Shown here: positions 1 to 50,207 of the stretch, piece after piece | Position numbering within the stretch: position 1 is the stretch's first letter | Layout: each line of letters starts with the position of its first letter | NCBI RefSeq assembly: GCF_003097535.1 | Contig: NZ_CP029187.1 | Location: 2,728,001 to 2,792,000, forward strand | Direction of reading: 5' to 3' | Length of the DNA stretch: 64,000 nucleotides | From: Flavobacterium pallidum | GTDB taxonomy: Bacteria > Bacteroidota > Bacteroidia > Flavobacteriales > Flavobacteriaceae | Position numbers and translations under genes: made by a program | The notes under the pieces: model-generated | The model's database searches: none | Told to the model about the DNA's origin: nothing | Seen by the model: the letters and a program-made list of their open reading frames with translations, nothing else

Positions 1-1
1 G

Positions 2-694
2 ACTTCGGTTTCACAAAGCCTGAAGGACGATACGTATAATTTATTCAATATAAAAAAGGAAATTCACGTGATTCCGAATTTCATCGAGCTTGATAAAAAC
101 CTTGACGATTCGAGCATTCCCTGTCATAGGTCTGTTATGGCAAAGCCTGAAGAACGCATCATCACGCACATCAGCAATTTCAGGAAAGTAAAAAGGATTC
201 CGGATGTAATCCATATTTTTTACAAAATCCAGCAAAAAATTCCCGCCAGGCTCATGATGGTAGGAGATGGTCCGGAAAAAATAAAAGCAGAACAGCTGTG
301 CGCCAAACTCGGTATCAGTGATAGGGTGATTTTTTTCGGCAACAGCAACGAAATTGATCGGATCCTGAGCTATACCGATTTGTTCCTGCTGCCATCCGAG
401 ACCGAAAGTTTCGGGCTTGCCGCATTGGAAGCGATGGCTTGGAGCGTACCAGTAATTTCGAGTAATTCGGGTGGATTGCCCGAAGTAAATTTCGATGGAA
501 TTTCAGGGTTTTTAAGCGATGTAGGCGATACGGATGCCATGGCTGAAAATGCTATCAAAATATTATCGGATGACGCTGCGTTATCATCGTTTAAAAAGAA
601 TGCGCTTGAGGTGGCAAAGCAATTCGATATCAAGAATATCCTTCCGTTGTATGAAGCGCTTTACCATCAGGCATTATCTAAAATTACATTATGA
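2..694 (+). CDS. bshA: N-acetyl-alpha-D-glucosaminyl L-malate synthase BshA, 3' part
   Basis: This is the C-terminal 230 residues or so of a GT4 glycosyltransferase; the 5' part lies outside the window and the frame is open from base 2. The visible part is the nucleotide-sugar-binding Rossmann half, with the typical ESFGLAALEAMA stretch followed by a GGLPEV motif (the E-x7-E region of GT-B enzymes). The PNFIEL segment near its start and the overall sequence resemble BshA, which transfers GlcNAc from UDP-GlcNAc to L-malate in the first step of bacillithiol synthesis, in the cytoplasm. Bacillithiol is common in Flavobacteriia. The stop codon overlaps the start of the next gene (ATGA). A generic GT4 enzyme is the alternative. 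Confidence 0.8.
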   Translation, partial: TSVSQSLKDDTYNLFNIKKEIHVIPNFIELDKNLDDSSIPCHRSVMAKPEERIITHISNFRKVKRIPDVIHIFYKIQQKIPARLMMVGDGPEKIKAEQLCAKLGISDRVIFFGNSNEIDRILSYTDLFLLPSETESFGLAALEAMAWSVPVISSNSGGLPEVNFDGISGFLSDVGDTDAMAENAIKILSDDAALSSFKKNALEVAKQFDIKNILPLYEALYHQALSKITL

Positions 695-1116
695 AAAAAA
701 TTGGATTACTTTTGATGGCCTTGGTGCTTTTTTCGTGCAAAACGACTAAAACTAGCGGAACGTCGCCATTATATGAAGTGCTTGCGGAAAGGAGTACGGG
801 TGGTGCACAGATTAAGTTTTATGAAATCATTTCAGAGCCGAATGAATTCAAAATGATTAAAAATGATCCGGCATTAAAGAAAAAAATAAAACCGACAGAT
901 ATCGATACGTCAAATTTTGTGATTCTAAGTGCAGGGGAGAAAAATACAGGCGGCTACAGTATCGGTATCGAGAAGATTGAAGAAACGGCAAACAACATCA
1001 TCGTTACGATCAAGGAAGAAGGACCGAAGCCGGGTGAAATGGTGACAGAATCACTGACGACGCCATTTACAATCATAAAAATAAATTCAAAAAAGGAAAT
1101 CATTTTCAACGATTAA
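691..1116 (+). CDS. PrcB-like lipoprotein (protease complex subunit family)
   Basis: A 141-residue protein with a lipoprotein signal peptide: a basic start, a hydrophobic stretch, then a FSC lipobox with Cys at residue 16. The rest resembles the PrcB C-terminal domain family, with an early region predicting a mixed sheet and a NTGGYSIGIEKIEE segment that is the recognisable core. PrcB was named as a partner of the PrtP/dentilisin protease of Treponema; in flavobacteria the role is unknown. The start overlaps the bshA stop by four bases, so the two are probably co-transcribed and translationally coupled. It is presumably anchored in a membrane facing the periplasm. The family call comes from motif memory only. 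Confidence 0.7.
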   Translation: MKKIGLLLMALVLFSCKTTKTSGTSPLYEVLAERSTGGAQIKFYEIISEPNEFKMIKNDPALKKKIKPTDIDTSNFVILSAGEKNTGGYSIGIEKIEETANNIIVTIKEEGPKPGEMVTESLTTPFTIIKINSKKEIIFND

Positions 1117-1132
1117 ATAAAACCATTAAATA

Positions 1133-1161
1133 AAAAATCCCGCCTGTTGAGCGGGATTTTT
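1133..1161. terminator. Bidirectional intrinsic terminator
   Basis: An 11-bp perfect stem (1133-1143 paired with 1151-1161) is GC-rich at the loop side and flanked by A and T runs, between the convergent PrcB-like gene and the barrel gene. It can terminate both. Confidence 0.85.
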
Positions 1162-1168
1162 CTGTTAT

Positions 1169-1663
1169 TTAGAACCTGTATCTCAGGCCAAGTGCAATAT
1201 CCGGACCGAAATCATCATCCCTGAATTCGTCACCAAAATATAATTCTGGTCGGATGTCAAGGGAAATCTGCAAAGGAATATCAAAATTGTACTCAATTCC
1301 AATGTCTCCGGCAGCCAGAAGGAACGTTCCGCTGTCGTCGTATCCCGGAGGCGCTTTGTCAATGCTGTAGCTTCCGATACCTCCACCAACTCCTGCAAAC
1401 CAATAAAATCCGGCATCGATATTCCAAAACCACTGGTAAACACCTACAAGTTTGTAAGCATCATAGTTTTTGTTATCACGCCATCCTAAATCCAGCTCCA
1501 GGCGGTTGTTCCCTGAAAAACGATGCTGATAAGAAAGTTCCCCACCAAAACCGTCATTGTCTCCCAAACGCAATCCCAGGGCATTTTTTGAAACCTCCTG
1601 AGCTTCAGCGCTGAATGCCAAACCGAGTAGCATTACAGCAGATAAAATCAATTTTTTCATCAT
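1169..1663 (-). CDS. Small outer-membrane beta-barrel protein
   Basis: A 164-residue protein with a clear Sec signal peptide ending in AEAQE (cleavage near residue 21). The mature part shows alternating hydrophobic and polar residues, many Gly, Tyr and Trp, and ends in LGLRYRF, with the terminal Phe typical of outer-membrane barrels. The size fits an eight-stranded OmpW/OmpX-like barrel. No specific substrate can be inferred. It stands alone, convergent with the PrcB-like gene and separated from it by a bidirectional terminator. Confidence 0.75.
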   Translation of the reverse strand: MMKKLILSAVMLLGLAFSAEAQEVSKNALGLRLGDNDGFGGELSYQHRFSGNNRLELDLGWRDNKNYDAYKLVGVYQWFWNIDAGFYWFAGVGGGIGSYSIDKAPPGYDDSGTFLLAAGDIGIEYNFDIPLQISLDIRPELYFGDEFRDDDFGPDIALGLRYRF

Positions 1664-1788
1664 AATTGTTTTTAAAGGTTAGTTTTTTGAATTACTGATA
1701 TTTATAGTATCAATTAATTTATTCCAAAAGTAGACCTTAACTGCCTTACGTTTGTTATGAAATTTCCTCTTAAATTTTATAAATAAAA

Positions 1789-1812
1789 AAGGCTGCCTAA
1801 ATTGACAGCCTT
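1789..1812 (-). terminator. Intrinsic terminator after the lipoprotein gene
   Basis: The 7-bp stem AAGGCTG (1789-1795) pairs with CAGCCTT (1806-1812). On the minus strand it is followed by a T run, about 20 bases after the stop of the 1834-2637 gene. Confidence 0.75.
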
Positions 1813-1833
1813 AATGGAATCGATATTTTATCC

Positions 1834-2637
1834 TTAATTTGTCGTATTCTGCATTACGTGATAATCATCCAATACTTCTGTCTGGCTTTGGCTTCCTGAA
1901 GATGGGAAAGGGAATTGGATATTGAGCAGGGACAAATCCACCAGGTGATAACTGATATTGGTATTTGCATGCACCATCCCGATGCCTTCTGCATAATATT
2001 GTGTAGAAGTCACCACATCCTGTGCTTCAAGTAAAGTAAACGGAAATCCTTGATAAGTTCCCGTTACAGCAACATTTAAAATCGTCTTTACAGGTTTTAA
2101 ATTGTTATAAACGGTATTGTCCGGAGCGGTGTAAGTGGCTTCTTCCGCTTGTGCAATAGACTTCAAGGTATAGTTTATGGTCAACGGGAATCCCTGCAGC
2201 GTCTGCTGTAAGGTTCCTGAAACCGAACTCAATTGCTGGTTTTCGGTGGCGTTTTTATCAAAAACAACGAAATCCGTCAGTTCTAAATCAATAGGCAATG
2301 CATTGGCAACATTTAGGCCTGCACCACCTGTGAGCAACAGTTTACCATTCACTTCGCGCACGCTGTTCCCCCTTAAAGTATTCGAGAAAAAGCCAGTAGG
2401 GATGGACTCGGTTTTGAACTTTTTATAAGTATTGGTATTAATCACGGTGTCATTGGCTATATACAACGAATCCCTACCAATTGAATTATCGCTTCCTGTG
2501 ACATTATAAACCCAGTAATTCCCGATGGTCACAGGCATAAAATTAGTTTCCACGGCCGGCCCGGAAGAATCATCACTATTGGAGCATGAGACGAGGAAGC
2601 CAAATGCCACGGCGATCAATAACAACTTGTTTTTCAT
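1834..2637 (-). CDS. Hypothetical lipoprotein
   Basis: A 267-residue protein with a lipoprotein signal peptide (lipobox LVSC, Cys 18) followed by a Ser/Asp-rich tether. The mature part starts with a PVTIGNYWVYNV segment typical of Bacteroidota surface lipoproteins, where the first strand contains a W-Y motif, and continues as a predicted beta-rich domain with no catalytic signature. The function is not recognised. It is transcribed alone and has its own terminator downstream. Confidence 0.7.
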   Translation of the reverse strand: MKNKLLLIAVAFGFLVSCSNSDDSSGPAVETNFMPVTIGNYWVYNVTGSDNSIGRDSLYIANDTVINTNTYKKFKTESIPTGFFSNTLRGNSVREVNGKLLLTGGAGLNVANALPIDLELTDFVVFDKNATENQQLSSVSGTLQQTLQGFPLTINYTLKSIAQAEEATYTAPDNTVYNNLKPVKTILNVAVTGTYQGFPFTLLEAQDVVTSTQYYAEGIGMVHANTNISYHLVDLSLLNIQFPFPSSGSQSQTEVLDDYHVMQNTTN

Positions 2638-2677
2638 AAAATTGAGTTTAGTTTGCCGCTAATGTAAGCAAAACATC

Positions 2678-3505
2678 CTAATCTCTCAAAAAAATTGAAT
2701 ACTGTGCCAATTCTTTGCCAAGTTTATCCTCAAATTCAAAATAATCCACCTCTTTCAATAATGGATCATCATTATAGTTGTATAACTTCCAACGCTTTTT
2801 ATTGTATTCCAAAGCCGTCAGGTTTTCAATCCAGTCACCGGAATTCAGGTAGATCGTTTCGCCTCTTTTATCCGATTTCCGCAAAATCTTCGGCTCGTGG
2901 ATGTGCCCGCAGATTACGAAATCATAGCCGTTTTCCAAAGCAATATCTGTAGCGGTTTCTTCAAAATCAGAAATGAATTTCACCGCTTTTTTTACACTGG
3001 CCTTAATCTTTTTGGAAAATGAATAGGGCTCTTTTCCCATGCGCTTTAAGCACCAGTTCACAAACCGGTTTATCAATATAAGGTAATCATATCCGATCCC
3101 GCCCAGTTTTGCAATCCATTTTGCATGATTTACCGAAGCGTCGAAAACATCGCCGTGAAAAATCCATGCTTGCTGCCCATCCAGATCCAAAACCAGCTTG
3201 TCTGCAATCGAAAAGTTCCCGATGTGCGCCTCGCTGAATTTACGCAGCATCTCATCATGGTTACCTGTTAAATAATATACCTTGGTACCTTTCGTGGCAA
3301 AATCAAGGATTTTCTTGACTACCTTTAAATGCGACTTTGGAAAATACGATTTCCGGAATTGCCAGATATCGACAATGTCGCCATTCAGGATAAGCGTTTT
3401 CGGCTTGATTGTGGAAAGATAACGATGCAGTTCCTTCGCGTGGCAGCCGTAAGTGCCCAGATGCACATCTGAAATCACTACCAGTTCAACAGCTCTCTTT
3501 TTCAT
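2678..3505 (-). CDS. UDP-2,3-diacylglucosamine diphosphatase-type metallophosphoesterase
   Basis: A 275-residue calcineurin-like phosphoesterase. The metal-site motifs are all present: SDVHLG near residues 12-17, NGDIVD at 41-46, GNHDE near 81-85, and a later GHIH. This set is typical of the LpxH branch, which cleaves UDP-2,3-diacylglucosamine to lipid X in lipid A synthesis at the inner membrane. Length and motifs match the Bacteroidota LpxH-like group. The role is inferred; several paralogues of this family have no proven lipid A role. It is divergent from aroC, with 196 bases between them. Confidence 0.75.
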   Translation of the reverse strand: MKKRAVELVVISDVHLGTYGCHAKELHRYLSTIKPKTLILNGDIVDIWQFRKSYFPKSHLKVVKKILDFATKGTKVYYLTGNHDEMLRKFSEAHIGNFSIADKLVLDLDGQQAWIFHGDVFDASVNHAKWIAKLGGIGYDYLILINRFVNWCLKRMGKEPYSFSKKIKASVKKAVKFISDFEETATDIALENGYDFVICGHIHEPKILRKSDKRGETIYLNSGDWIENLTALEYNKKRWKLYNYNDDPLLKEVDYFEFEDKLGKELAQYSIFLRD

Positions 3506-3680
3506 AAATTGAAGTTTTACAAATGAAAGGAGGTAATGTAAACTGAAGGTCAGGAGAATATTATCAATTGGATAACATGATGGATTGTCAGATTACCGGA
3601 TTTTCAGAAATTTTTGCTGAATATTTAATGGCAATTATCCGATAATCTGAAGATCTGAAAATCTAACAATCTAAATTATC
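3506..3680. repeat. AT-rich spacer with imperfect inverted repeats
   Basis: The divergent spacer between the LpxH-like gene and aroC contains several copies of a GATTxTCAG-like word in both orientations (for example GATTTTCAG near 3598 and CTGAAAATC near 3654). It can fold into an imperfect hairpin. No gene is visible. Confidence 0.45.
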
Positions 3681-3688
3681 TATATTTG
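3681..3688 (+). promoter_or_regulatory. Bacteroidota -7 box upstream of aroC
   Basis: TATATTTG matches the TAnnTTTG consensus and sits 14 bases before the aroC ATG. No clear -33 TTG is seen. Confidence 0.5.
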
Positions 3689-3702
3689 TAAAAAACCAAA
3701 CC

Positions 3703-4761
3703 ATGGCCGGAAATTCTTACGGTACAATTTTCAAAATAACCACATTTGGCGAGTCACACGGCGAAGCCCTAGGCGGGATCATCGATGGCTGCCCTCCGGG
3801 CATTATACTCGATTTCGATACCATAAAACTAGACATGCAACGTCGTAAACCCGGCCAGTCCAATATAGTTACACAACGTCATGAAGAAGATGAAGTGCAA
3901 TTCCTGTCCGGTATTTTTGAAGGCAAGACCACGGGCACACCTATCGGTTTTATCATCCCAAACACCAACCAGAAATCCGACGATTATTCCCATATTAAGG
4001 ACGCATACCGCCCGAGCCACGCCGATTATGTTTACGAAAAAAAATATGGTATCCGTGATTACCGCGGCGGCGGACGCAGTTCGGCGCGCGAAACGGCAAG
4101 CAGGGTAGTGGCAGGCGCAGTTGCAAAACAGGTCATTGCTGATATAAAGATCAACGCTTTCGTGTCATCTGTAGGGGATATTTTCATCGACAAACCCTAC
4201 CAGGTATTGGATTTTTCCAAAACTGAATCCAATCCTGTACGTTGCCCGGATGGAGCTACGGCTGCCAAAATGGAAGAATACATCCGCCAGATCCGCAAAG
4301 AAGGCAATACCGTGGGCGGCACCATAACCTGTGTATTGCAAAATGTGCCCGTCGGACTTGGAGAACCCGTATTCGACAAACTTCACGCTGAACTCGGTAA
4401 AGCCATGCTCTCCATCAATGCCGTACACGGTTTCGAATACGGCAGCGGTTTCTGCGGTGCCAGGATGAAAGGCAGTGACCATAACGATTTATTCAACGCT
4501 GATGGCACGACCAAATCAAACCTGTCCGGCGGCATCCAGGGCGGCATTTCAAACGGCATGGATATTTATTTCCGTGTAGCGTTTAAGCCTGTAGCGACCA
4601 TTATGCAAACGCAGCAAACCATCGATAAAGATGGAAATATAATAGAAATGCAGGGCAAAGGCCGCCATGATCCTTGTGTCGTGCCGCGCGCCGTGCCGAT
4701 TGTCGAGGCGATGGCAGCGATCGTCCTGGCCGATTTTTATCTGATGAATAAAATGTATTAG
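3703..4761 (+). CDS. aroC: Chorismate synthase
   Basis: A 352-residue protein that makes chorismate from 5-enolpyruvylshikimate-3-phosphate, the last step of the shikimate pathway, using reduced FMN. The signature GESHG lies near residues 14-18, with the RPSHADY motif and the [22 protein letters not shown] block at about 122-143 (FMN and phosphate binding). The length is normal for the family. The start ATG follows a TATATTTG -7 box. Its stop codon merges with the first base of a palindromic extragenic element. Confidence 0.97.
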
Positions 4762-6957: not shown

Positions 6958-9126
6958 CTATTTCTTCGCTTCGACAAATTCCAATGATTCCAGGCTTACC
7001 GTTGAAGTAAATAGCCCATAATTTACCACCGCTTTATTCTTCTCAATCTTATCGATGGACCCGACGGAGCGCCCGTCGAGCATGCGGACGCGGTCTCCGA
7101 CTTTGAGTACCGGTTTGGGTTTTTCAACAACCTGCGCCGCCTTGATTTTTTTTTCTTTCTTTTCCTTGCGGATTTCCTCGACTTTGACTTCGACTTCTTT
7201 TATGATCTGTTTTTGCTGGACTTCTTTGGCTTTTTGCTCTTTTACAGTAGCTTTTTTTCGTTTGGAACTTTCAATTTCAATTAATTTCAGAAATTCTCCT
7301 ATAATGGCTTTCTTATCTTTGTTGTTCACGTACTTATCGGCCATTTCATCCACCTTTTGCCCCATATAAATCAGCTTTTGGTTGCTGTCATACAATTCCT
7401 GGTAGCTTTCGAGTTTTTGCTGGATGCGGCTATTGATATGCTGCATTTTCTGGCTTTCCTCCCGCGCTCTGGTTTCTTCTTCTTTAAGTGTATTCGAGGT
7501 TTTTTCCAGTTTTGAACGTTCCTTTTGCAAGGTAGCAATGGTTTTATCGAAGCGTACTTTGCCAACTTCAATTTTCTTCTTCGCACGGTTGATCAGCCCG
7601 AAAGGGATGCCGTTTTTCTGCGCCACTTCAAATGTAAACGAACTTCCTGCCTGGCCCAAAACCAGTTTGTACATCGGTTCCAGGGACTTTTCATCAAAGA
7701 GCATGTTCGCATTCATGGCATAAGGCAGCTCGTTTGCCAATATCTTCAGGTTCGAATAATGTGTCGTAATGATACCAAACGCCTCCCGATGGTAAAATTC
7801 TTCAAGGAAAATTTCTGCCAATGCACCGCCCAGTTCAGGATCGGATCCCGTCCCGAATTCATCGATCAGGAACAATGTTTTCTTATTGCACTTTTTTAGG
7901 AAATAATTCATGTTCTTGAGCCTGTAACTATAAGTACTCAGATGATTTTCAATCGATTGGTTGTCGCCGATATCAGTCAAAATCCGGTCAAACAAGAAGG
8001 TTTCGCTCCGCTCATGTACCGGTATCAGCATTCCGGATTGCAGCATCAGTTGCAGTAGCCCCACGGTTTTTAAAGAAATGGTCTTTCCCCCGGCATTGGG
8101 TCCTGAGATGACAATAATGCGTTTGTCCTGCTTCAGTTCAATGGTCTGCGGGAACGTTGGTTCGTTTTTTTGTTTATTCGTAAGATATAAAATCGGATGG
8201 TAAGCATCGCGGAAGTACAAACGCTTTTCATCAGTAATTTGAGGCAAAATACCATTGATCCGTACAGCATATTTCGCTTTGGCAGCAATCACATCAATGT
8301 CGCCCAGGAAATCCTGGTATTGTATGATCAAGGGCAAATGGATACGGATTTCATTGCTCAGTTGCTTTAAAATGCGCATGATTTCCTCTTTTTCTTCGTA
8401 TTCGAGGTTGCTGAGCTCACGCGAATATTTCAAGGTGGCTTCGGGTTCGATGTAAGCGATGCTTCCGGTTTTGGAACTGCCCAGGATGGAACCTTTGACT
8501 TTCCTGCGGTACATCGCCAAAACTGCCAACACACGCCTGTTCTGTACAAAACTTTCCTTGATATCATCCAGATATCCCAAGCCGGAATATTGTGTGAGTG
8601 CGATGCCGAAACTTTGGTTGACTTTTCCGCGAACGGTATTCATTTCACGACGGATATTTTGCAATTCAGGGGACGCATTGTCTTTGATTTCACCATATTT
8701 GTCTACAATGGTATCAATCTTACTGACGATTTCCTTTGTCAGTTCAATCCCGGCTGCCTTGATATTTAAATTGGGATAATAATCGTCAAACTTCCTGAAG
8801 TATTGCAGCAAAATGTTCACAGTTTCAGACAATGATGCAATCTTGCGGAAACTTCCGGCCTCGAGCACACTATTTTCAATAGCGAGGAATTTTATTTCAT
8901 GGCCCACCGCATCGAATCCATGGTTGGGAATGGCATTATTGTTTTGGAAAGAAGAAACATATTCTGATGCCTGCAACAAAGCTTCCATCAGTGTTTCCTT
9001 ATCTTTAAAAGGGGTGATACCAAGCGCTTTCTCCTTACCGATATCGGTATTGCACATCGCGGAAATGGTTTCGAGTATGGTGGTGAACTGCAAATCCTGC
9101 AGCGTTTTTTCTGTAATAGAGATCAT
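6958..9126 (-). CDS. mutS2: MutS2 family protein lacking an Smr domain
   Basis: A 722-residue DNA-binding ATPase of the MutS2 family. The ATG at 9126 (MISITEKTL) is preferred over an upstream one at 9153 because it matches where family members begin. Walker A GPNAGGKT lies near residue 335, followed by the MutS ABC signature region and DEFGTGSDPELGGALAE (Walker B, D-loop). A long charged coiled-coil, Lys/Glu-rich to about residue 660, comes next. The C terminus ends with a short KOW/SH3-like VGDRVRMLDGRSVGSI segment and then stops. The Smr nuclease domain found at the C terminus of well-studied MutS2 proteins is not there. MutS2 suppresses homologous recombination and, in Bacillus, rescues collided ribosomes. 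Confidence 0.92.
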   Translation of the reverse strand: MISITEKTLQDLQFTTILETISAMCNTDIGKEKALGITPFKDKETLMEALLQASEYVSSFQNNNAIPNHGFDAVGHEIKFLAIENSVLEAGSFRKIASLSETVNILLQYFRKFDDYYPNLNIKAAGIELTKEIVSKIDTIVDKYGEIKDNASPELQNIRREMNTVRGKVNQSFGIALTQYSGLGYLDDIKESFVQNRRVLAVLAMYRRKVKGSILGSSKTGSIAYIEPEATLKYSRELSNLEYEEKEEIMRILKQLSNEIRIHLPLIIQYQDFLGDIDVIAAKAKYAVRINGILPQITDEKRLYFRDAYHPILYLTNKQKNEPTFPQTIELKQDKRIIVISGPNAGGKTISLKTVGLLQLMLQSGMLIPVHERSETFLFDRILTDIGDNQSIENHLSTYSYRLKNMNYFLKKCNKKTLFLIDEFGTGSDPELGGALAEIFLEEFYHREAFGIITTHYSNLKILANELPYAMNANMLFDEKSLEPMYKLVLGQAGSSFTFEVAQKNGIPFGLINRAKKKIEVGKVRFDKTIATLQKERSKLEKTSNTLKEEETRAREESQKMQHINSRIQQKLESYQELYDSNQKLIYMGQKVDEMADKYVNNKDKKAIIGEFLKLIEIESSKRKKATVKEQKAKEVQQKQIIKEVEVKVEEIRKEKKEKKIKAAQVVEKPKPVLKVGDRVRMLDGRSVGSIDKIEKNKAVVNYGLFTSTVSLESLEFVEAKK

Positions 9127-42163: not shown

Positions 42164-43297
42164 ATGAAAAAGGTACTCATTATTGGTGGCGGCCTCGCTG
42201 GGTTAACGGCAGCGATACATCTTTCGAAATCCGGTATTCCCGTAACGCTTGTAGAAAAAAATGGATATCCGAAGCACAAGGTTTGCGGCGAGTATATCTC
42301 CAATGAGATCCTTCCTTATTTTGAATGGCTCGGCATTGATATCGATTCGCTGCATCCGGCGGGAATCAATACACTTCAGTTTACATCGGTAAGAGGCAGG
42401 ATGATTGGCTGTAAACTTCCGTTGGGCGGCTTTGGCATAAGCCGTTATACGCTGGATGATTATCTACACCAAAAAGCAAAAGGAGCCGGTTGTAAAATCA
42501 TTACGGCCACGGTCGAAAATGTGGTTTTCAAAGATGATATTTTCCAGATTGTATTGGATAACGGAAATGAAATGACAGCAGATATTGTGATTGGTGCGTA
42601 CGGAAAGCGGTCGTCATTTGATATTAAGTTACAGCGTAAATTCATAGGCCAAAAATCACCCTGGCTTGCCGTAAAATCACATTATAAAGGAAATTTCCCT
42701 GATGATGTTGTGGGATTATACAATTTCGAGGGTGGTTATTGCGGCATTTCAAAAGTAGAAAACGGCAACCTGAATGTGTGTTACCTCGCAGATTATGACA
42801 CCTTTAAAAAGCATAAAAATATTCTAGAATATGAAAAAAAGGTGCTTTACAAAAATCCATCGTTAAAACATATTTTCGAAAACGCGGCCCCTGTTTTTGA
42901 GAAACCACTATCGATCAGCCAGATATCATTCGAATCCAAAAATTGTGTTGAAAACCACATCTTAATGACCGGAGATTCTGCAGGATTAATACATCCGATG
43001 TGTGGCAATGGCATGGCGATGGCAATTCACAGCGCGAAAATGGCTTCGGAAGGCATTCTTAAATTCTGCCATGATCCAAAATACTCACGTTCTGATTTAG
43101 AGTCAGAATATACTGCGGAATGGCGTAAAAATTTCAGCAAAAGATTAAAAACCGGTAAAGCATTAGCAAAAGTCCTTCAAAATAGGTACCTTTCAGGGAT
43201 GTTGATGCAACTTGCGTTTTGGTTTCCAGTGGTGCTTCCCTTCATCATCCGCAAAACCCATGGAAAAGTTTTAACAATTAAAAACCCATGTCCCTAA
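42164..43297 (+). CDS. FAD-dependent oxidoreductase (geranylgeranyl-reductase/hydroxylase-like) of the type III PKS cluster
   Basis: A 377-residue flavoprotein. It starts KKVLIIGGGLAGLTAAIHL with the GxGxxG FAD-binding turn (residues about 8-13), then PKHKVCGEYIS. The GD-like motif LMTGDSAGLIHPMCGNGMAMAIHS is near residue 270. This pattern is shared by ring hydroxylases and geranylgeranyl reductase-like enzymes. As the first gene of the cluster, it would oxidise or reduce the polyketide product. Its stop overlaps the methyltransferase start by ten bases. Confidence 0.8.
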   Translation: MKKVLIIGGGLAGLTAAIHLSKSGIPVTLVEKNGYPKHKVCGEYISNEILPYFEWLGIDIDSLHPAGINTLQFTSVRGRMIGCKLPLGGFGISRYTLDDYLHQKAKGAGCKIITATVENVVFKDDIFQIVLDNGNEMTADIVIGAYGKRSSFDIKLQRKFIGQKSPWLAVKSHYKGNFPDDVVGLYNFEGGYCGISKVENGNLNVCYLADYDTFKKHKNILEYEKKVLYKNPSLKHIFENAAPVFEKPLSISQISFESKNCVENHILMTGDSAGLIHPMCGNGMAMAIHSAKMASEGILKFCHDPKYSRSDLESEYTAEWRKNFSKRLKTGKALAKVLQNRYLSGMLMQLAFWFPVVLPFIIRKTHGKVLTIKNPCP

Positions 43298-43995
43298 ATA
43301 CCAAATACCGATCTGATGCTGCAGAAATCATGGATGATTTCAGTCTTGAAGGTGACACGCTGCGTGATGCGCTGGATAAGATTGAAAGCATTAACCAATG
43401 GCTCGGCGGCAATAAGGCGATCCTGGGCGGCATCGACAAACTCATCGGCAATCATGATGCCTCACAAACGATCAGCATTTGTGACGTGGGCTGCGGCAAT
43501 GGTGCCATGCTGAGATGCATTGCAGATTACGGACTGATAAATGACCTGAAACTGGAGCTTACCGGCATTGATGCCAATAATTATACAATCAGGCATGCAA
43601 GGCAACTTTCGAATCATTACCCAAATATCATTTACCGATGCGAAGATGTGTTTAAAGAATCACTCGGAAAGCATGATATCATTGTGTGTACGCTGACGAT
43701 GCATCATTTCAAAGACGGCGAGATCTTGAGCCTGATGCAGCGGTTTTCTGACAGCGCCCGCATAGGCATTATCATCAATGATCTGCAAAGAAGTGCCCTG
43801 GCGTACCGTTTGTTTCAGGTGGTTTGCTTTGTTTTCAGGCTCAATAAAATGTCAAAAGAAGATGGCCTGGTTTCCATATTGCGTGGATTCAAAAAAAGGG
43901 AACTGATCGGTTATTCAAAAAAACTAAACTTTCAAAATTACAGTGTCCGTTGGCGGTGGGCCTTCCGCTACCAATGGATTATTTCAAAAATATGA
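43288..43995 (+). CDS. SAM-dependent methyltransferase
   Basis: A 235-residue class I methyltransferase. ISICDVGCGNGAMLRCIAD (residues about 64-82) is motif I, followed by LTGIDANNYTI (motif II acidic residue) and DIIVCTLTMHHFKDGEIL (motif IV/V). It should O- or C-methylate a phenolic or pyrone product. Overlaps of ten bases with the upstream gene and four bases (ATGA) with the type III PKS gene show translational coupling. Confidence 0.85.
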   Translation: MSLNTKYRSDAAEIMDDFSLEGDTLRDALDKIESINQWLGGNKAILGGIDKLIGNHDASQTISICDVGCGNGAMLRCIADYGLINDLKLELTGIDANNYTIRHARQLSNHYPNIIYRCEDVFKESLGKHDIIVCTLTMHHFKDGEILSLMQRFSDSARIGIIINDLQRSALAYRLFQVVCFVFRLNKMSKEDGLVSILRGFKKRELIGYSKKLNFQNYSVRWRWAFRYQWIISKI

Positions 43996-45044
43996 GTGTA
44001 CGAATCAAAACGGTCGCCAAACAGTTGCCGCAATACCATAAAAATACTGAAGAGATCCTTCCATTCCTTGATGCCTGGCTCTCAGGCCAGGACGAGCGTT
44101 TCATCAAAAAAGTCAAAAAGATATTTGAAGGTGCCGGCGTTGACAGGCGTTATTCGATTATGGAACCTTCCGAAGTTTTCACAGCGACATCCTTTGAGCA
44201 GAAAAATGACATTTATATCAGGGAAGTCATTGATCTTGGTGAAAAGGTTTTGACTAAAGCGTTGCAGAAAGCGGATTGGCAACCCGGACAGCTTGATTAC
44301 ATCATCACCGTCAGTTGCACCGGCATTATGATTCCGTCATTAGACGCGTATCTGATCAATAAATTGAAATTAAGGCAGGACATCGTGCGTTTGCCGGTCA
44401 CTGAAATGGGCTGTGTAGCTGGGATTTCCGGCATCATTTATGCCAAAAACTTCCTGGCTTCCAATCCGGGGAAACGCGCTGCGGTAATTGCTGTTGAAAG
44501 TCCGACGGCAACGTTTCAGCTGGACGATTTCTCAATGGCCAATATTGTCAGTGCGGCGATTTTCGGCGATGGTGCGGCCTGTGTCTTACTTTCGTCCGAC
44601 AAAAGCGATGAAGGTCCGGAAATCATTGACGAGGAAATGTATCATTTTTATGATAATGACCATATGATGGGCTTTCAACTCACCAACCACGGACTTAAAA
44701 TGGTGCTTGACATTGAAGTTCCTGAAACGATTGCGTCACATTTCCCGAACATCATCAATCCTTTCCTGGCTAAAAACAACTTGCGGATCGAAGATATCAA
44801 TCACCTGATTTTTCATCCGGGCGGAAAAAAAATCGTGCAGACTGTGGAGGAATTATTCTCTGGCTTAGGTAAAAATATTGACGACACGAAGGAAGTTTTG
44901 AAGTCATACGGAAACATGTCCAGCGCCACAGTCTTATATGTATTGGAAAGATGTATGGAACGCCATCCTGAAAAAGGAAACACTGGGGTGATGCTCAGTT
45001 TCGGGCCAGGTTTTACAGCCCAGAGGGTCTTATTAAAATGGTAA
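43992..45044 (+). CDS. Type III polyketide synthase (chalcone/stilbene synthase family)
   Basis: A 350-residue ketosynthase of the chalcone synthase superfamily. The Cys-His-Asn triad is complete: Cys141 in EMGCVAGISG, His275 in FHPGGKK, and Asn308 in YGNMSSATV. RRYSIMEPSEVF near residue 52 and a GPG loop near residue 340 (SFGPGFTAQ) agree. It condenses a starter, here probably an ACP- or CoA-bound acyl chain, with malonyl units to give pyrones or resorcinol-type rings. The ATG at 43992 overlaps the methyltransferase stop (ATGA). It is not a FabH, since the triad and lengths follow the type III pattern. Confidence 0.92.
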   Translation: MSVRIKTVAKQLPQYHKNTEEILPFLDAWLSGQDERFIKKVKKIFEGAGVDRRYSIMEPSEVFTATSFEQKNDIYIREVIDLGEKVLTKALQKADWQPGQLDYIITVSCTGIMIPSLDAYLINKLKLRQDIVRLPVTEMGCVAGISGIIYAKNFLASNPGKRAAVIAVESPTATFQLDDFSMANIVSAAIFGDGAACVLLSSDKSDEGPEIIDEEMYHFYDNDHMMGFQLTNHGLKMVLDIEVPETIASHFPNIINPFLAKNNLRIEDINHLIFHPGGKKIVQTVEELFSGLGKNIDDTKEVLKSYGNMSSATVLYVLERCMERHPEKGNTGVMLSFGPGFTAQRVLLKW

Positions 45045-45484
45045 TGATGGATATAGAAACGATTCCCGCCTTGTTGCCGTATGCAAAGCCGTTCCTTTTT
45101 GTGGATGGCTTATCACACATTGATGAAAACAGCGTGGAAGGCCATTATACATTCACTGAAGACCACGACTTTTTTAAAGGCCATTTTAAAGGGAATCCTG
45201 TCGTTCCGGGTGTAATACTTACAGAAACCATGGCACAGATAGGGCTCGTTTGCATGGGCATTTACCTTTCAAATGATACATTGGATAAAACTACTGTAAT
45301 CGCCTTGACATCAACAGAAATAGAATTTATAATCCCTGTTTACCCAAAAGAAAAAATAGTGGTGGTTTCTGAAAAAATATATTTCCGTTTCGGGAAATTA
45401 AAATGCCGCGTAAAAATGCTTAATGCACACGATAAAGTGGTGTGTGAAGGCACGATTGCAGGAATGATAACAAGCAAATCATGA
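45038..45484 (+). CDS. FabZ-like 3-hydroxyacyl-ACP dehydratase
   Basis: A 148-residue hotdog dehydratase. FFKGHFKGNPVVPGVILTETMAQ (residues about 45-67) carries the catalytic His and Glu. Three in-frame ATGs (45038, 45044, 45047) are possible; the one at 45044 overlaps the upstream stop (TAATG). It is expected to act with the ketosynthase and ACP of the cluster in chain building or reduction. The start of the next gene overlaps its stop by four bases. Confidence 0.88.
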   Translation: MVMMDIETIPALLPYAKPFLFVDGLSHIDENSVEGHYTFTEDHDFFKGHFKGNPVVPGVILTETMAQIGLVCMGIYLSNDTLDKTTVIALTSTEIEFIIPVYPKEKIVVVSEKIYFRFGKLKCRVKMLNAHDKVVCEGTIAGMITSKS

Positions 45485-46755
45485 ATAAAAGGGTTGTCAT
45501 TACAGGCTTGGGTGTCGTATCTCCGAATGGGATCGGGATTCAGGATTTTACACATGCCATAAAAAATGGCGTTTCGGGGATCCGTTTTGACCCGGAGCTG
45601 GAGCGGCTACAGTTTTCCTGTAAAATTTCGGCGAAACCGGATTTGGATGTGGGCAATATTTCTAAATATTTCACTGAACTGGAGCTCCGCAATTTCAATT
45701 CCACCGGGATATTATATGGTGTCATTGCCGGCATGCAGGCGTGGAATGATGCCAGTTTACCCGTTGATGGCATGGACAATCCTGATTGGGACAGCGGTAC
45801 GATATTCGGGACCGGCACATCAGGGATCGATAAATTCCGTGAAAGCATTTACAAGATAGACGACCTGCAAACAAGGAAACTGGGCAGTACTGCAGTCGCA
45901 CAAACCATGAACAGTGGTGTGAGCGCTTATCTGGGCGGGAAACTGGGTCTGGGAAACCAGGTCACCACGAATTCATCGGCCTGCACTACCGGAACTGAAA
46001 GCATTTTAATGGCTTACGAAAGGATTGTTTCCGGAAAGGCAAAACGAATGCTGGCAGGAAGCACCAGTGATTCGGGTCCATATATCTGGGGAGGGTTCGA
46101 TGCCATGAAAGTATGTACTTTCAAACATAACGAAGAACCTGAAAAAGGCTCGCGCCCGATGTCAGCCACTGCATCAGGCTTCGTTCCCGGAAGTGGGGCA
46201 GGTGCTTTATTGCTTGAAGATCTGGACAGTGCGCTTGAACGAAATGCAAAAATTTACGCAGAGGTTTTAGGCGGGAATGTCAATTCTGGCGGACAACGTG
46301 GCGGCGGGACCATGACTGCGCCAAATCCTGAAGCGGTAAAAAAGTGCATTAGAGCCGCTTTGGCAAATGCCGGAATCAATGCGTCGGAAATTGATGCTGT
46401 TAATGGGCACCTCACTGCCACTTCGAAAGACAGCCTGGAGATAGAGAATTGGGTGGAGGCGTTGGGTAGGAGCGGAGCTGATTTCCCCTATATCAACTCG
46501 CTGAAATCAACCGTCGGTCATTGCCTCTCTGCTGCGGGCAGCATAGAATCTGTGGCAGCCGTTTTACAAATCCACCATGGTTTTGTCTTCCCAAATACCA
46601 ATTGTGATGATCTGCATCCTGACATAGCGGAACGGATCGACAAGCAGAAAATACCCACACAACTTATCCATAAAAACATCAATATGGTTGCCAAAGCAAG
46701 TTTTGGCTTTGGCGATGTCAACGGCTGTGTTATTTTTAAAAAATATAAGAAATAA
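45481..46755 (+). CDS. Beta-ketoacyl-ACP synthase (FabF/KAS II-like)
   Basis: A 424-residue ketosynthase. Catalytic Cys168 lies in TNSSACTTGTES, and the two His residues are found in the NGHLTATSKDS block and the KSTVGHCLSAAGS block (the usual HGTxT is HLTAT here). The Cys-His-His set therefore appears complete with a variant second motif. It would elongate acyl chains on the cluster ACP. It starts within the dehydratase stop (ATGA overlap) and is separated by seven bases from the ACP gene. Confidence 0.88.
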   Translation: MNKRVVITGLGVVSPNGIGIQDFTHAIKNGVSGIRFDPELERLQFSCKISAKPDLDVGNISKYFTELELRNFNSTGILYGVIAGMQAWNDASLPVDGMDNPDWDSGTIFGTGTSGIDKFRESIYKIDDLQTRKLGSTAVAQTMNSGVSAYLGGKLGLGNQVTTNSSACTTGTESILMAYERIVSGKAKRMLAGSTSDSGPYIWGGFDAMKVCTFKHNEEPEKGSRPMSATASGFVPGSGAGALLLEDLDSALERNAKIYAEVLGGNVNSGGQRGGGTMTAPNPEAVKKCIRAALANAGINASEIDAVNGHLTATSKDSLEIENWVEALGRSGADFPYINSLKSTVGHCLSAAGSIESVAAVLQIHHGFVFPNTNCDDLHPDIAERIDKQKIPTQLIHKNINMVAKASFGFGDVNGCVIFKKYKK

Positions 46756-46762
46756 ATATACT

Positions 46763-47005
46763 ATGAACGATACGATTGCTAAGTTAAAAGAAATTATCAG
46801 GCCTTATGTAAAAGAACAGCAGGCGCTGGAAAACCTGACTGAAGACACCGACTTCATCAATGACCTCAAAATCAATTCTGCCAATCTGGTGGATATTGTC
46901 CTTGATATTGAAGAAGCATTCGGAATTGAAATCGACAATCAGTCGATGGAAAAAATGCTGTCGGTAAAAGCTGCTTTGGAGATTATCAATGAAAAACTGG
47001 ACTAA
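46763..47005 (+). CDS. Acyl carrier protein
   Basis: An 80-residue ACP with acidic character. The phosphopantetheine Ser lies in DLKINSANLVDIVLDIEEAF (Ser38, equivalent to the DSL motif, here NSAN). The ATG at 46763 is chosen because it gives a standard ACP; the frame is open further upstream into the ketosynthase gene. It would carry the growing acyl chain in the cluster. Confidence 0.9.
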   Translation: MNDTIAKLKEIIRPYVKEQQALENLTEDTDFINDLKINSANLVDIVLDIEEAFGIEIDNQSMEKMLSVKAALEIINEKLD

Positions 47006-47009
47006 AGCC

Positions 47010-47534
47010 ATGATAGGTAACGATTTGGTGGATTTGGCGGCAGCCGCAAAAGAAAGCAACTGGAGAAGAAAAGGTTATCTCCAGAAAATATTCACGGAAA
47101 CGGAACAATCATACATTATAAATTCACCAAAACCGGAAATTGTAGTCTGGATATTATGGAGCATGAAAGAAGCGGCTTATAAGATCTGGAACCGGGAAAG
47201 TGGTATGCGCAGCTTTAATCCAAAGGCGTTTGAATGTCAAATTTGCCAGATTTGTGAAAATACAGCGACAGGGAAAGTCTATTTCGGGAGTGCCGAATAC
47301 CTTTCTGAAACGATCATCAATACGGCGTTCCTCCACACGACCTGTCGAAACCATGACTATATAAAACCACTTTTTACGAGCATTGCCTGTCATGGAAGCG
47401 ATATTGAAATGAGGAACCACATTATCCGTGATAAAGCGGGAATCCCCATAGCCGCAAAGCAGCCTGAAGCATTCATTTCAAAAAGTCATCACGGCATGTT
47501 TTGTAGTTATTTATCTACATTTAAATTAAAATAG
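47010..47534 (+). CDS. 4'-phosphopantetheinyl transferase (AcpS-like)
   Basis: A 174-residue (or 181, if started at the ATG at 46989, which overlaps the ACP gene) phosphopantetheinyl transferase. IGNDLVDL carries the metal-binding Asp, and ILWSMKEAAYKIW carries the KE motif; the C terminus ends KSHHGMFCSYL with a GxxH-like turn. It probably activates the cluster ACP by attaching the phosphopantetheine arm. It is the last biosynthetic gene of the run. Confidence 0.85.
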   Translation: MIGNDLVDLAAAAKESNWRRKGYLQKIFTETEQSYIINSPKPEIVVWILWSMKEAAYKIWNRESGMRSFNPKAFECQICQICENTATGKVYFGSAEYLSETIINTAFLHTTCRNHDYIKPLFTSIACHGSDIEMRNHIIRDKAGIPIAAKQPEAFISKSHHGMFCSYLSTFKLK

Positions 47535-47688: not shown

Positions 47689-48288
47689 CTACTTTAATCC
47701 AAGCTTAGATTTCAGTTTCAGGAACATCAATGCGATGGAGTAAGCATCTTCGGAAGCAGAAACTTTTTCGATAGCAGGCATCTTAAGCAGTGCGCTTAAT
47801 TCAGCAAGCGTAAAATGCTTGTCATCATTAAGGTCTTTCCATTTCTGATACATAATTTCAATATCTAGCGCCTCATTTTTGAGTCGGCCGCAATGGATTT
47901 TTTCCAATGCCGCATTAATCATCTCTACATCAAAGTTTACGCGATGCCCAATGATTGCCGCGTTTCCGAGATAATCTACGAAAGCCTTTATTCCGTCAGG
48001 TTCCAATGCTTTGGGTTGCTTGCTTTCGACAATAAATTCATTGGATAAATGATGGTCATGGTTGTAAACGTACTGGAGTAAAACCACTTCATAGCTGTCG
48101 CCAATAATGATTTCATCGTTCATGACCCCGAATGCACTGATGGAAAGGATCACATCCTTTTTATAATCATGCCCGGTCGTAGTAACACTTAACGCAACAG
48201 ATCGCGGTGAGCGCTTGTCAAATTTAGACAGGTACACTTTCCAGAAATCCGGATACTCTTTGTTGATATTTTTTAGCCAGTCAAGCAT
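47689..48288 (-). CDS. DnaQ-like exonuclease-fold protein with degenerate active site
   Basis: A 199-residue protein with the DEDD exonuclease fold. The first motif, normally D-x-E-T-T-G, reads LSVTTTGHD (both acids lost, S and T instead). Motif II is IIGHRVNFDVEMI with FD kept. Motif III is SASEDAYSIA with a normally His-containing H-x-x-x-D changed. The protein is therefore probably not an active 3'-5' exonuclease; a binding or regulatory role is likely. It follows the DUF294/CBS gene by two bases on the same strand, and this pairing is seen in many bacteria. Confidence 0.75.
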   Translation of the reverse strand: MLDWLKNINKEYPDFWKVYLSKFDKRSPRSVALSVTTTGHDYKKDVILSISAFGVMNDEIIIGDSYEVVLLQYVYNHDHHLSNEFIVESKQPKALEPDGIKAFVDYLGNAAIIGHRVNFDVEMINAALEKIHCGRLKNEALDIEIMYQKWKDLNDDKHFTLAELSALLKMPAIEKVSASEDAYSIALMFLKLKSKLGLK

Positions 48289-48290
48289 AT

Positions 48291-50207
48291 TTATGAGAAA
48301 AAAGTAAGCTGGTATTTGTTTTTAATGATTTCTTCAAGATCCTTGAGCGGCAGGAAACAGTTCTTGAGTTTTTCGCGATCCGGTTTCGTCAGTTCCTCGA
48401 TTGAAATGTACTGTCCGGTATTGCCGTTTTTAATCCCGCTGATGGTGCGGAATTTAAGCAGCATCAGGAATGCTTCGGCACAATTCATATAGATATCAGC
48501 GTATTTCGGTTCATTGGCCGCCAATTGCTTAAAACGCGAAAAAGTATTGTTGATGCCTTTGATGTGGTTGCTTAAAGTCAGCACTCTCGCCGCATCAACA
48601 TAAGGCATAATGGCGCGGTTCTTGATATCGAAAAGTTCTTTATGCTCTCCTTCTTCTTCAAGGTTGAATTGCTTGAAGAAACTTAAAGGCGGCGGTTTTC
48701 GTATCGCTTCGTTACCGAGGAATGCAAAGAATTTCTTGTTTTTCCTGGCGCTTAAATTACTGAAAATACTATCTGACAACGCTTCCTCCAGTTGGATTTC
48801 CCCAAATGCAATCTCAAAATCGAAGAAAATACTGTAGCTGTCTTCTGGCTTCGCGGCAGGATTCGTCATCCATTCGTCGTATTGGTTGGTCCAGTCGGTC
48901 AGGGATTTACACCAAACCATATTGCTGGCCATATGCCCGTATTTGCATAATGGATACCCGATGGTTTCGAGCATCCCGGTGACGCGTTTGGCCAGTTTCA
49001 GGAAATAATCCTTTACATCTTTGTATTTATCGGCGGCGACATCTTCAAACACCAGCATGCTGTCCTGGTCAGTGAGCAGCAGTTGTTCTTTGCGGCCCTG
49101 GCTTCCAATACTGAGCCATGCAAACCGGGCAGGGGCAGAGCCAATTTCAAGGATAACAAGGTCTACAGCGCGCTTGATAATCGCCATATTCACTTCCCCA
49201 GCGATATTATTGATGTGGGAAATCGGGATTTTGTTGTCTATGGAAATCCGGATGAAATCAGCGAGTTTCTCACGAAGGTGCTTGAGTTCCTCTGCATCGG
49301 GCGCTTTTTTGATTTCCTTGACCAAAATTCCCGGATTGTTGGATTGTGCCGAAATGATGTCGTGCTGTGAAATCACACCCCGGATTTGTGTTTTGTCGGT
49401 GCCGTCGATTGTTACACATAAATATTGTACATTTTGCCGAAGCATAAAAAGTTGTGCCTCAGCCAGGGAAAGGTTTTCAGGAACGGTGATTACCGGCGAC
49501 ATGATGCTGTTGATCAGCGTGGTGATGTAAAATCTCCCGGTAGCCACTTTGGAACGGAATTCCGCATCTGTTACAATCCCTAGCGGAATGTTATTTTCAT
49601 GGACGATCACGCATCCCAAAAGATTGTCCGTCATTAATTGCGCAACCTGCTGTACAATTGCAGTAGGGCTCACAGTCAGCGGTTTTTTATTATAATCCAA
49701 AGACTGGAAATACTGTATTTCCGTCTGGCTATCAATATATTGCACCGTGTCGTTGATGAGTTTGTTCTTGTTTTTGTCCAAAGAACTTCTTGAAGTACTG
49801 GCAAAACTCTGCAATAAGAAATCAAGTACAGCAGTATTATTGGCAACAAATGGCCTGAAAGTAGCGATGGGAATAGCATAAAGAATACTGTCCTCGCGCG
49901 CCTTTGCTGTCATCTGATAATTGTTCTTTGCAAAAAAAGGACGAAGCCCCATAATGTCACCAGGTTCGCAGCGGTTCAGTAAAGTTTCCTCTGCATCCGA
50001 AATTACTGACAAGTTGATGATTCCCGCACCTACAACATAAAAACAATCGTGCAGCGGGTCGTCAATCTTGAAGATGGCTTTGTTCTTTTCAAGCGTAATC
50101 ACCCTGATGTCCATAGCTACATGGGTGAGTTCATCAAAGGTCATGTTTGTAAACGGCGGATAGGCTGACAGGAAGTCGGCAATCCGTTCGGCAATACTAT
50201 TTTTCAT
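48291..50207 (-). CDS. cNMP-binding / CBS / DUF294 nucleotidyltransferase-like protein
   Basis: A 638-residue multi-domain protein. Residues about 15-135 are a cyclic-nucleotide-binding-like domain (EPGDIMGLRPFF). Residues about 175-300 are a CBS pair (VTDAEFRSKVA, GVISQHDIISA). Residues about 310-470 are a DUF294 nucleotidyltransferase-like domain with IGSQGRKEQLLLTDQDSMLVF (G-S-x-G-R and D-x-D motif). The C-terminal part is DUF294_C. It may sense energy or cyclic nucleotides and modify a partner; such proteins often accompany acetate metabolism genes. It is divergent from gapN. Confidence 0.88.
   Translation of the reverse strand: MKNSIAERIADFLSAYPPFTNMTFDELTHVAMDIRVITLEKNKAIFKIDDPLHDCFYVVGAGIINLSVISDAEETLLNRCEPGDIMGLRPFFAKNNYQMTAKAREDSILYAIPIATFRPFVANNTAVLDFLLQSFASTSRSSLDKNKNKLINDTVQYIDSQTEIQYFQSLDYNKKPLTVSPTAIVQQVAQLMTDNLLGCVIVHENNIPLGIVTDAEFRSKVATGRFYITTLINSIMSPVITVPENLSLAEAQLFMLRQNVQYLCVTIDGTDKTQIRGVISQHDIISAQSNNPGILVKEIKKAPDAEELKHLREKLADFIRISIDNKIPISHINNIAGEVNMAIIKRAVDLVILEIGSAPARFAWLSIGSQGRKEQLLLTDQDSMLVFEDVAADKYKDVKDYFLKLAKRVTGMLETIGYPLCKYGHMASNMVWCKSLTDWTNQYDEWMTNPAAKPEDSYSIFFDFEIAFGEIQLEEALSDSIFSNLSARKNKKFFAFLGNEAIRKPPPLSFFKQFNLEEEGEHKELFDIKNRAIMPYVDAARVLTLSNHIKGINNTFSRFKQLAANEPKYADIYMNCAEAFLMLLKFRTISGIKNGNTGQYISIEELTKPDREKLKNCFLPLKDLEEIIKNKYQLTFFS

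Follow-up and report, generated by a model that had tools for sequence, protein, structure and literature searches.

A 64,000-nucleotide stretch of the Flavobacterium pallidum genome (contig NZ_CP029187.1, positions 2,728,001 to 2,792,000; below referred to as the window) contains a cluster of seven open genes around a type III polyketide synthase (PKS). The genes lie on the forward strand between positions 42164 and 47534 (Table 1) and encode, in this order, a flavin adenine dinucleotide (FAD) enzyme, a methyltransferase (MT), the PKS, a dehydratase (DH), a ketosynthase (KS), an acyl carrier protein (ACP) and a phosphopantetheinyl transferase (PPTase). From the FAD gene to the KS gene, successive genes overlap by 10, 4, 7 and 4 bases, followed by gaps of 7 and 4 bases, which confirmed the coordinates, order and tight coupling given in an earlier reading of this DNA (the original prediction). 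The GC content of the cluster is 0.433, against 0.431 for the window; the host genome is a single contig of 3.55 Mb, and the nearest protein carrying an organism name came from Flavobacterium magnum (91%). As judged from the sequence comparisons described below, the cluster probably assembles a fatty chain on a carrier protein of its own and folds the end of that chain into a methylated, oxidised ring.

Table 1. Genes of the type III PKS cluster and their positions in the window.
Predicted product	Length (aa)	Position	Strand	Family or domain match
FAD-dependent oxidoreductase/monooxygenase-like	377	42164..43297	+	Pfam FAD_binding_3 and others
S-adenosylmethionine (SAM)-dependent methyltransferase	235	43288..43995	+	Pfam Methyltransf_25
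Type III PKS	350	43992..45044	+	Chal_sti_synt N and C domains
FabZ-like 3-hydroxyacyl-ACP dehydratase	148	45038..45484	+	Pfam FabA
FabF-like ketosynthase, distinct clade	424	45481..46755	+	Pfam ketoacyl-synt
Acyl carrier protein, attachment site N-S-A	80	46763..47005	+	Pfam PP-binding
Phosphopantetheinyl transferase	174	47010..47534	+	Pfam ACPS

The Pfam and NCBIfam families of all seven proteins agreed with these roles. Among the matches listed, none of the seven reached its NCBIfam cut-off, so the assignments name families and not functions. The FAD protein scored 110.4 bits against GG-red-SF (cut-off 158.8), and its closest solved structures, an FADH2-dependent halogenase and the MHPCO oxygenase, were all weak matches (≤36.7 bits); the MT scored 114.3 bits against PRK06202 (cut-off 243). 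Residues were compared in alignments of relatives for which the best-scoring open reading frame per gene and locus was taken, as was also done for the PKS tree and for the gene calls at named loci. The motifs GGG (77/77 rows) and GD (79/79) were kept in the FAD protein, D66, G68, G70 and G72 in the MT (78/78), and His49 and Glu63 in the DH (77/77). The KS, with the motifs GHLTAT and GFGD, retained Cys168 in 76/76 rows and His310 and His347 in 75/75. Ser39 of the ACP was present in 76/76 rows, in 75 of them within an N-S-A site, the usual attachment site of ACPs being D-S-L. In the PPTase, for which an alternative in-frame ATG at 46989 is possible (giving 181 aa), D5 and D8 were kept in 69/69 rows and K53-E54 in 70/70. 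The KS, DH and ACP of a reducing type II fatty acid synthase (FAS) or PKS are thus all encoded with intact active sites, and the sequence supports the chain-building set described in the original prediction.

The cluster is common in Bacteroidota, a point that goes beyond the original prediction. Among 392 sampled Bacteroidota genomes, 177 matched the PKS at E 1e-25, and 35, the own genome included, did so at 67-100% identity; the other matches, as far as listed, reached ≤37%. An order-level sample gave matches in 182 of 196 genomes at E 0.001, and 28 of these held the close form (≥61% identity). The KS type of the cluster occurred in 40 of the 392 genomes, among them all 35 with a close PKS, where it lay 439-1529 bases from the PKS on the same contig (35/35). 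The other five genomes with this KS hold a distant-form PKS elsewhere. The KS and PKS counts stem from 392-genome samples that are to all appearance identical and contain many kin of the window; samples were drawn by the search tool, thresholds differ among the surveys, and all of the evidence is from sequence.

Gene neighbourhoods were compared at 33 close-form loci, at 37 distant-form loci picked from a longer list, and at 80 named loci, the best 80 of at least 579 relatives; the sets of 33 and 80 share at least four genomes and were not added together. All 33 close-form loci carried the FAD gene and the MT (32/33 for the MT after overlap filtering), DH, KS and ACP were each present in 32/33 (the one locus lacking them, L064, is a contig of just 3.9 kb), and the PPTase in 24/33. 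The named loci, from Flavobacterium, Pedobacter, Chitinophaga, Polaribacter, Aquimarina, Winogradskyella, Dokdonia, Psychroserpens, Spirosoma, Siphonobacter and other genera, had the FAD gene in 79 cases, the MT in 77, DH in 76, KS in 75, ACP in 75 and PPTase in 69. Four named loci lack DH. At two of them, L153 and L166, the locus stops short (L166 is cut right after the PKS), which is not so for L173 and L167. Gene order was kept at the 33 close-form loci and at most of the named loci. Apart from an additional reductase gene discussed below, no flanking family exceeded 6/33 close-form loci; the gene set is thus maintained as a unit while its neighbours vary. Near the distant-form PKS, DH, KS and ACP were found at 0/37 loci; an MT homologue adjoined the PKS in 19/37 and an FAD homologue lay nearby in 14/37. 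At L167 (6191-9835) only the FAD gene, MT, PKS and additional reductase are encoded together, and DH, KS and ACP lie on another contig of the same metagenome-assembled genome (L202, 6484-8491; KS 64% identity). This split set is good evidence that core and chain-building part belong together. Carriage of the close form on plasmids was rejected, as the 227 plasmid records matching the PKS were all <60% identical. Sequence comparison thus presents the cluster as a real and widespread lipid operon of the PKS-MT-FAD type with an added chain builder of its own.

Roughly half of the relatives carry an eighth gene, encoding a short-chain dehydrogenase/reductase (SDR), in the slot between PKS and DH: 17/33 close-form loci (16 by stricter clustering) and 29/80 named loci. 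At L049, for example, it occupies positions 7436-8230. The SDR has a Tyr-x6-Lys spacing in 17/17 close-form copies and, among the 29 named copies, in all 28 that are long enough to cover it (26 found by pattern matching, L148 and L155 by eye); the 29th, L153, is cut off. Such spacing is that of FabI/FabL-type enoyl reductases, FabG having Tyr-x3-Lys. The best NCBIfam match was FabL (150 bits, cut-off 328) and the best solved structure FabL 3oic (95.7 bits, the next 74.2). From its sequence, the SDR looks like an enoyl reductase (ER) rather than a ketoreductase; the latter assignment was rejected on the spacing together with the FabL match. The original statement that the cluster lacks both reductases therefore stands for the window, where neither was found among the cluster genes, but not, as far as the ER is concerned, for many relatives. 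On a PKS tree of 105 rows (79 of the 80 named loci, L166 having been dropped, 22 of the 33 close-form loci and 3 outgroups), presence and absence of the SDR required 13 changes, at least 9 of them forced by well supported branches. Since the SDR is also present in chain-building sets with other partners (L203-L205) and in deep PKS-linked ones (L211-L218), repeated loss, as in the window, is the simplest reading of this patchy distribution. In Flavobacterium the SDR occurred in 2/32 named loci with DH, one of which, L126 (Flavobacterium agri MAH-1), is the neighbour of the window in the KS tree; F. omnivorum (L114) is among the strains without it. The PKS and DH genes of the window overlap by 7 bases, so no SDR remnant is left in the slot, and a relocated copy in the own genome was rejected (best match only 30% identity). 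That KS, DH and ACP have been kept so steadily suggests that the primary FabI is able to take over from the lost SDR.

If KS and DH acted without an ER, the cluster would produce an unsaturated chain, and the resulting pyrone or resorcinol would be polyenyl-substituted and might serve as a pigment. The ER is absent from the window and was not found in 51/80 named loci (L166 being cut), and for flexirubin KS, ketoreductase and dehydratase have been postulated to act together in a polyene route (PMC3992019; papers are cited here by PMC number for the parts of their text that were available). Such a product is nevertheless unlikely: the operons of relatives do encode the ER-like SDR, its 13 changes on the PKS tree look as if the primary FabI replaced it, and the cluster contains a single KS, with one other FabF-like KS in the genome. 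Membership of the flexirubin/aryl polyene clusters was rejected on the same single KS and on the score of the PKS against the DarB profile (21.8 bits, cut-off 550).

The other FabF-like KS of the own genome is 34% identical to the cluster KS and was taken as the housekeeping enzyme. In a KS tree of 45 picked rows, 38 rows from KS-DH-(ER)-ACP sets (below referred to as cassettes) parted from 7 other FabF rows with full support. The motif GHLT[ASG]T was found in 37/38 cassette rows, the exception being the half-length L162, and GFGD replaced the GFGGHN of the 7 FabF rows in all cassette rows except L205 and L162. The KS of L162 (Spirosoma telluris, G553 C1 5130610-5131874) is spread over two overlapping frames, by frameshift or sequencing error. 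The sequences thus point to the KS-DH-(ER)-ACP part as a distinct lineage. The backbone of the tree does not resolve the order of partners, and the PKS-linked rows need 3 changes.

A second KS survey of 296 genomes of one class, made with another query and threshold, found 24 genomes with a cassette KS, 11 of them new, and the PKS was part of the cluster in 10 of the 11. Both surveys combined, which searched for the cassette within Bacteroidota, the cassette lies in a PKS cluster in 45 of 51 genomes with a cassette KS. In the other six (L203-L207, L209/L210) no PKS lies nearby, so the cassette is not PKS-specific. L203 (6779-13538) and L204 (6658-12832) contain a homologous PPTase-ACP-KS-DH-ER set, the PPTase being recognized by weak blast only, in divergent orientation beside the DarB (632 and 612 bits, cut-off 550) of a dialkylresorcinol/flexirubin cluster; L203 additionally encodes DarG (198 bits, cut-off 170). 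A DarA-like neighbour at both loci was labelled by eye and gave no match in the NCBIfam search. The adjacency to DarB is telling, DarB being another route to a resorcinol lipid. At L205 (7100-12246), L206 (5825-10186) and L207 (6109-10356) the cassette is accompanied by a GNAT-like protein (by Pfam for L205 only, by eye for L206 and L207) and a family-2 glycosyltransferase (by Pfam for L205 and L206), and an ER is present only at L205. No type III PKS was recognized within the fetched stretches of these three loci, which suggests another lipid made from acyl-ACP. One genome (G558) has two cassettes, L209 and L210; in the latter (1-4678), DH and KS flank a FabH-like ketosynthase gene (187.5 bits, cut-off 249). 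A tentative picture, to which we assign slightly less than even weight, is that KS, DH, ER, ACP and PPTase form a portable acyl-ACP-building cassette of Bacteroidota, a side lineage of type II FAS that is plugged into type III PKS, DarB and GNAT-like plus glycosyltransferase heads, and that together with the PKS it would make unknown but widespread methylated pyrone or resorcinol lipids.

The six genomes with a cassette away from any nearby PKS would also fit a general lipid-elongation set that stands beside the type III PKS by chance. With the cassette in a PKS cluster in 45 of 51 genomes, a KS clade of its own and the split L167/L202 set, this is quite improbable.

The Cys-His-Asn triad noted in the original prediction corresponds to C141-H275-N308 of the PKS and was kept in 33/33 relatives and 81/81 alignment rows, the latter also sharing the FGPGF loop. 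With its Chal_sti_synt domains and this triad the protein belongs to the chalcone synthase superfamily, and the top 60 of 126 matched solved sequences all bore type III PKS or chalcone/stilbene-type names. Pks11, which takes acyl chains, was the closest solved structure and CylI ranked third. The best NCBIfam match was DpgA, and one could imagine the reverse flow, in which a small aromatic starter, formed by the type III PKS in the manner of DpgA, is then extended by KS, DH and ACP. The match of 179 bits is far under the cut-off of 425, so identity with DpgA was rejected, no ligase or loading enzyme was found among the seven genes, to which the family libraries were applied, and of the nearest structures, Pks11 and CylI, the latter likewise takes acyl chains (PMC8086630); we regard the reverse flow as very unlikely. 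That the PKS instead acts as a FabH-type enzyme that starts the chains of an additional fatty acid synthase, a reading for which weaker FabH-type profile matches and the adjoining fatty-acid genes speak, and which the original prediction had set out as the case against itself, is scarcely credible given the chalcone-synthase domains, the invariant triad and loop, the absence of FabH among the 60 best solved matches, and the MT and FAD partners.

The close form of the PKS carries the signature MGF in 33/33 loci, and the distant form MGW in 36/37. At the His-3 position the window has Leu (Leu272) and the 33 close-form relatives have Leu, Met or Phe, with Trp in 0/33. The position is occupied by Trp or Tyr in the five reference sequences; among distant-form loci it is Trp in 17, Phe in 15, Tyr in 4 and Ile in 1. 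Whether the Azotobacter enzymes form a resorcinol or a pyrone is steered by Trp281 in ArsB and Gly284 in ArsC, respectively (PMC6274091; PMC9927152). The His-3 position was taken as the Trp281 site by an inferred register and not by alignment to ArsB, and Trp also occupies this position in Pks11, which is deposited as a pyrone synthase. The lack of Trp at His-3 would, if this register holds, weaken the prediction of a resorcinol without proving a pyrone. The original alternative of pyrone or resorcinol thus stands, and resorcinol alone has become less certain.

From the gene set, its intact catalytic residues, its conservation as a unit, the ER-like gene of relatives and the relation of MT and FAD gene to three-gene PKS operons we infer that the product is a lipid carrying a small oxygenated ring, made by a core of the srs/hierridin type fed by a dedicated acyl-ACP builder, and we favor this reading on balance. 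KS and DH would assemble the acyl chain on the cluster ACP, borrowing ketoreduction from the primary FabG and, in the window strain, where the FabL-like SDR is absent, enoyl reduction from the primary FabI. The acyl-ACP would then be handed to the type III PKS, which would add malonyl-CoA units and close a pyrone or resorcinol ring. Finally, the MT and the FAD enzyme may methylate and hydroxylate or oxidise the ring, as in srs, hierridin and polyketide-quinone operons. A second MT of the PRK06202 family (below cut-off) was observed near or in the cluster at L216 (9596-10315) and L215 (3111-4534) and may indicate two methylations. Precedents for type III PKSs that take acyl-ACP are GCS, SCO7671 and the transfer from ArsA to ArsB and ArsC (PMC6274091).

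Several observations weigh against this reading. No dedicated ketoreductase was recognized in the clusters looked at, and with the SDR missing from the window and not found at most named loci, saturation of the chain is not assured. L173 continues for 1.8 kb beyond the ER without a DH, and the PPTase went undetected in 11/80 named loci, some of them cut by contig ends. The cassettes lacking a nearby PKS and the missing Trp at His-3 point in the same direction. According to the available text of PMC10896814, the planctomycete study could not demonstrate what the FAD gene and two MTs do.

The likeness to srs-type clusters claimed in the original prediction was supported by sequence. Like the srsABC, hid and pkq operons, the cluster has a type III PKS with adjacent MT and oxidoreductase; the likeness rests on the MT and FAD homologues near distant-form PKSs described above and not on Srs, Hid or Pkq sequences. 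Unlike these systems, the window PKS belongs to a distinct clade without Trp at His-3. ArsA is a multidomain type I enzyme, whereas the chain builder of the window would consist of separate type II proteins and be incomplete without borrowed reductases. Azotobacter ars nevertheless resembles the present proposal in that a dedicated chain maker, ArsA, hands acyl-ACP to the type III PKSs ArsB and ArsC (PMC6274091). In the planctomycete operon the PKS comes last, preceded by MT and FAD genes as in the core of the window cluster (PMC10896814). No dedicated KS, DH, ER, ACP or PPTase is described for srs, hid or pkq operons in the available text, whereas the window cluster has KS, DH, ACP and PPTase. 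For hierridin, Streptomyces and mycobacterial operons, MT and oxidoreductase have been proposed or reported to convert alkylresorcinols to methoxylated phenols or quinones (PMC8086630; PMC9927152). In the cylindrocyclophane pathway (CylB ACP, type I PKS, CylI), too, a type III PKS completes a chain that is bound to an ACP (PMC8086630), but this chain comes from decanoate and a type I PKS, without a KS-DH cassette. Flexirubins and dialkylresorcinols (DarA, DarB) are resorcinol lipids of Bacteroidota, and a homologous ER-DH-KS-ACP cassette stands beside DarB at L203 and L204; their ring, however, is made by DarB/DarA and not by a type III PKS.

Type III PKS (T3PKS) clusters have been counted in Bacteroidota by antiSMASH (PMC7440613, PMC12565237, PMC10752948). 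In the available portions of the open-licence literature, subscription papers and supplements lying outside the search, neither a product nor an account of such a gene set was found, in line with the original prediction, which knew of no product for such a flavobacterial cluster. The main text of a Bacteroidetes-wide survey (PMC9248904) contains neither 'type III' nor 'T3PKS', and a paper on koreenceine (PMC6498172) proved, in its available part, unrelated to the cluster.

In about one in eleven sampled Bacteroidota genomes (~9%), operons of this family combine a type III PKS with a dedicated carrier protein and dedicated elongation enzymes. Type III PKSs are usually viewed as free-standing enzymes with CoA starters. 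If the proposed route is true, these operons would provide a testable example of a type II system passing its acyl-ACP on to a type III PKS. They would also represent a new lipid class in bacteria that are common in soil and sea, and supply a chain-building cassette that can be reused.

Among the distant-form loci, L071 (6253-7823) has a type III PKS followed by an ICMT-type gene, as do nine others, making 10/37 (Pfam ICMT was shown for L071); these pairs probably represent a separate lipid operon of Bacteroidota. A YceI-family gene (NCBIfam, below cut-off) lies directly 5' of the FAD gene at L053 (3716-4228), and a YceI-looking family was seen in 6/33 close-form loci, upstream in about four. 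On the 3' side of the cluster in the window, exonuclease-like and CBS/nucleotidyltransferase-like genes, labelled by eye, occupy positions 47689-50207 on the reverse strand, and two such families follow the cluster in 6/33 close-form loci, their match to the window having been made by eye.

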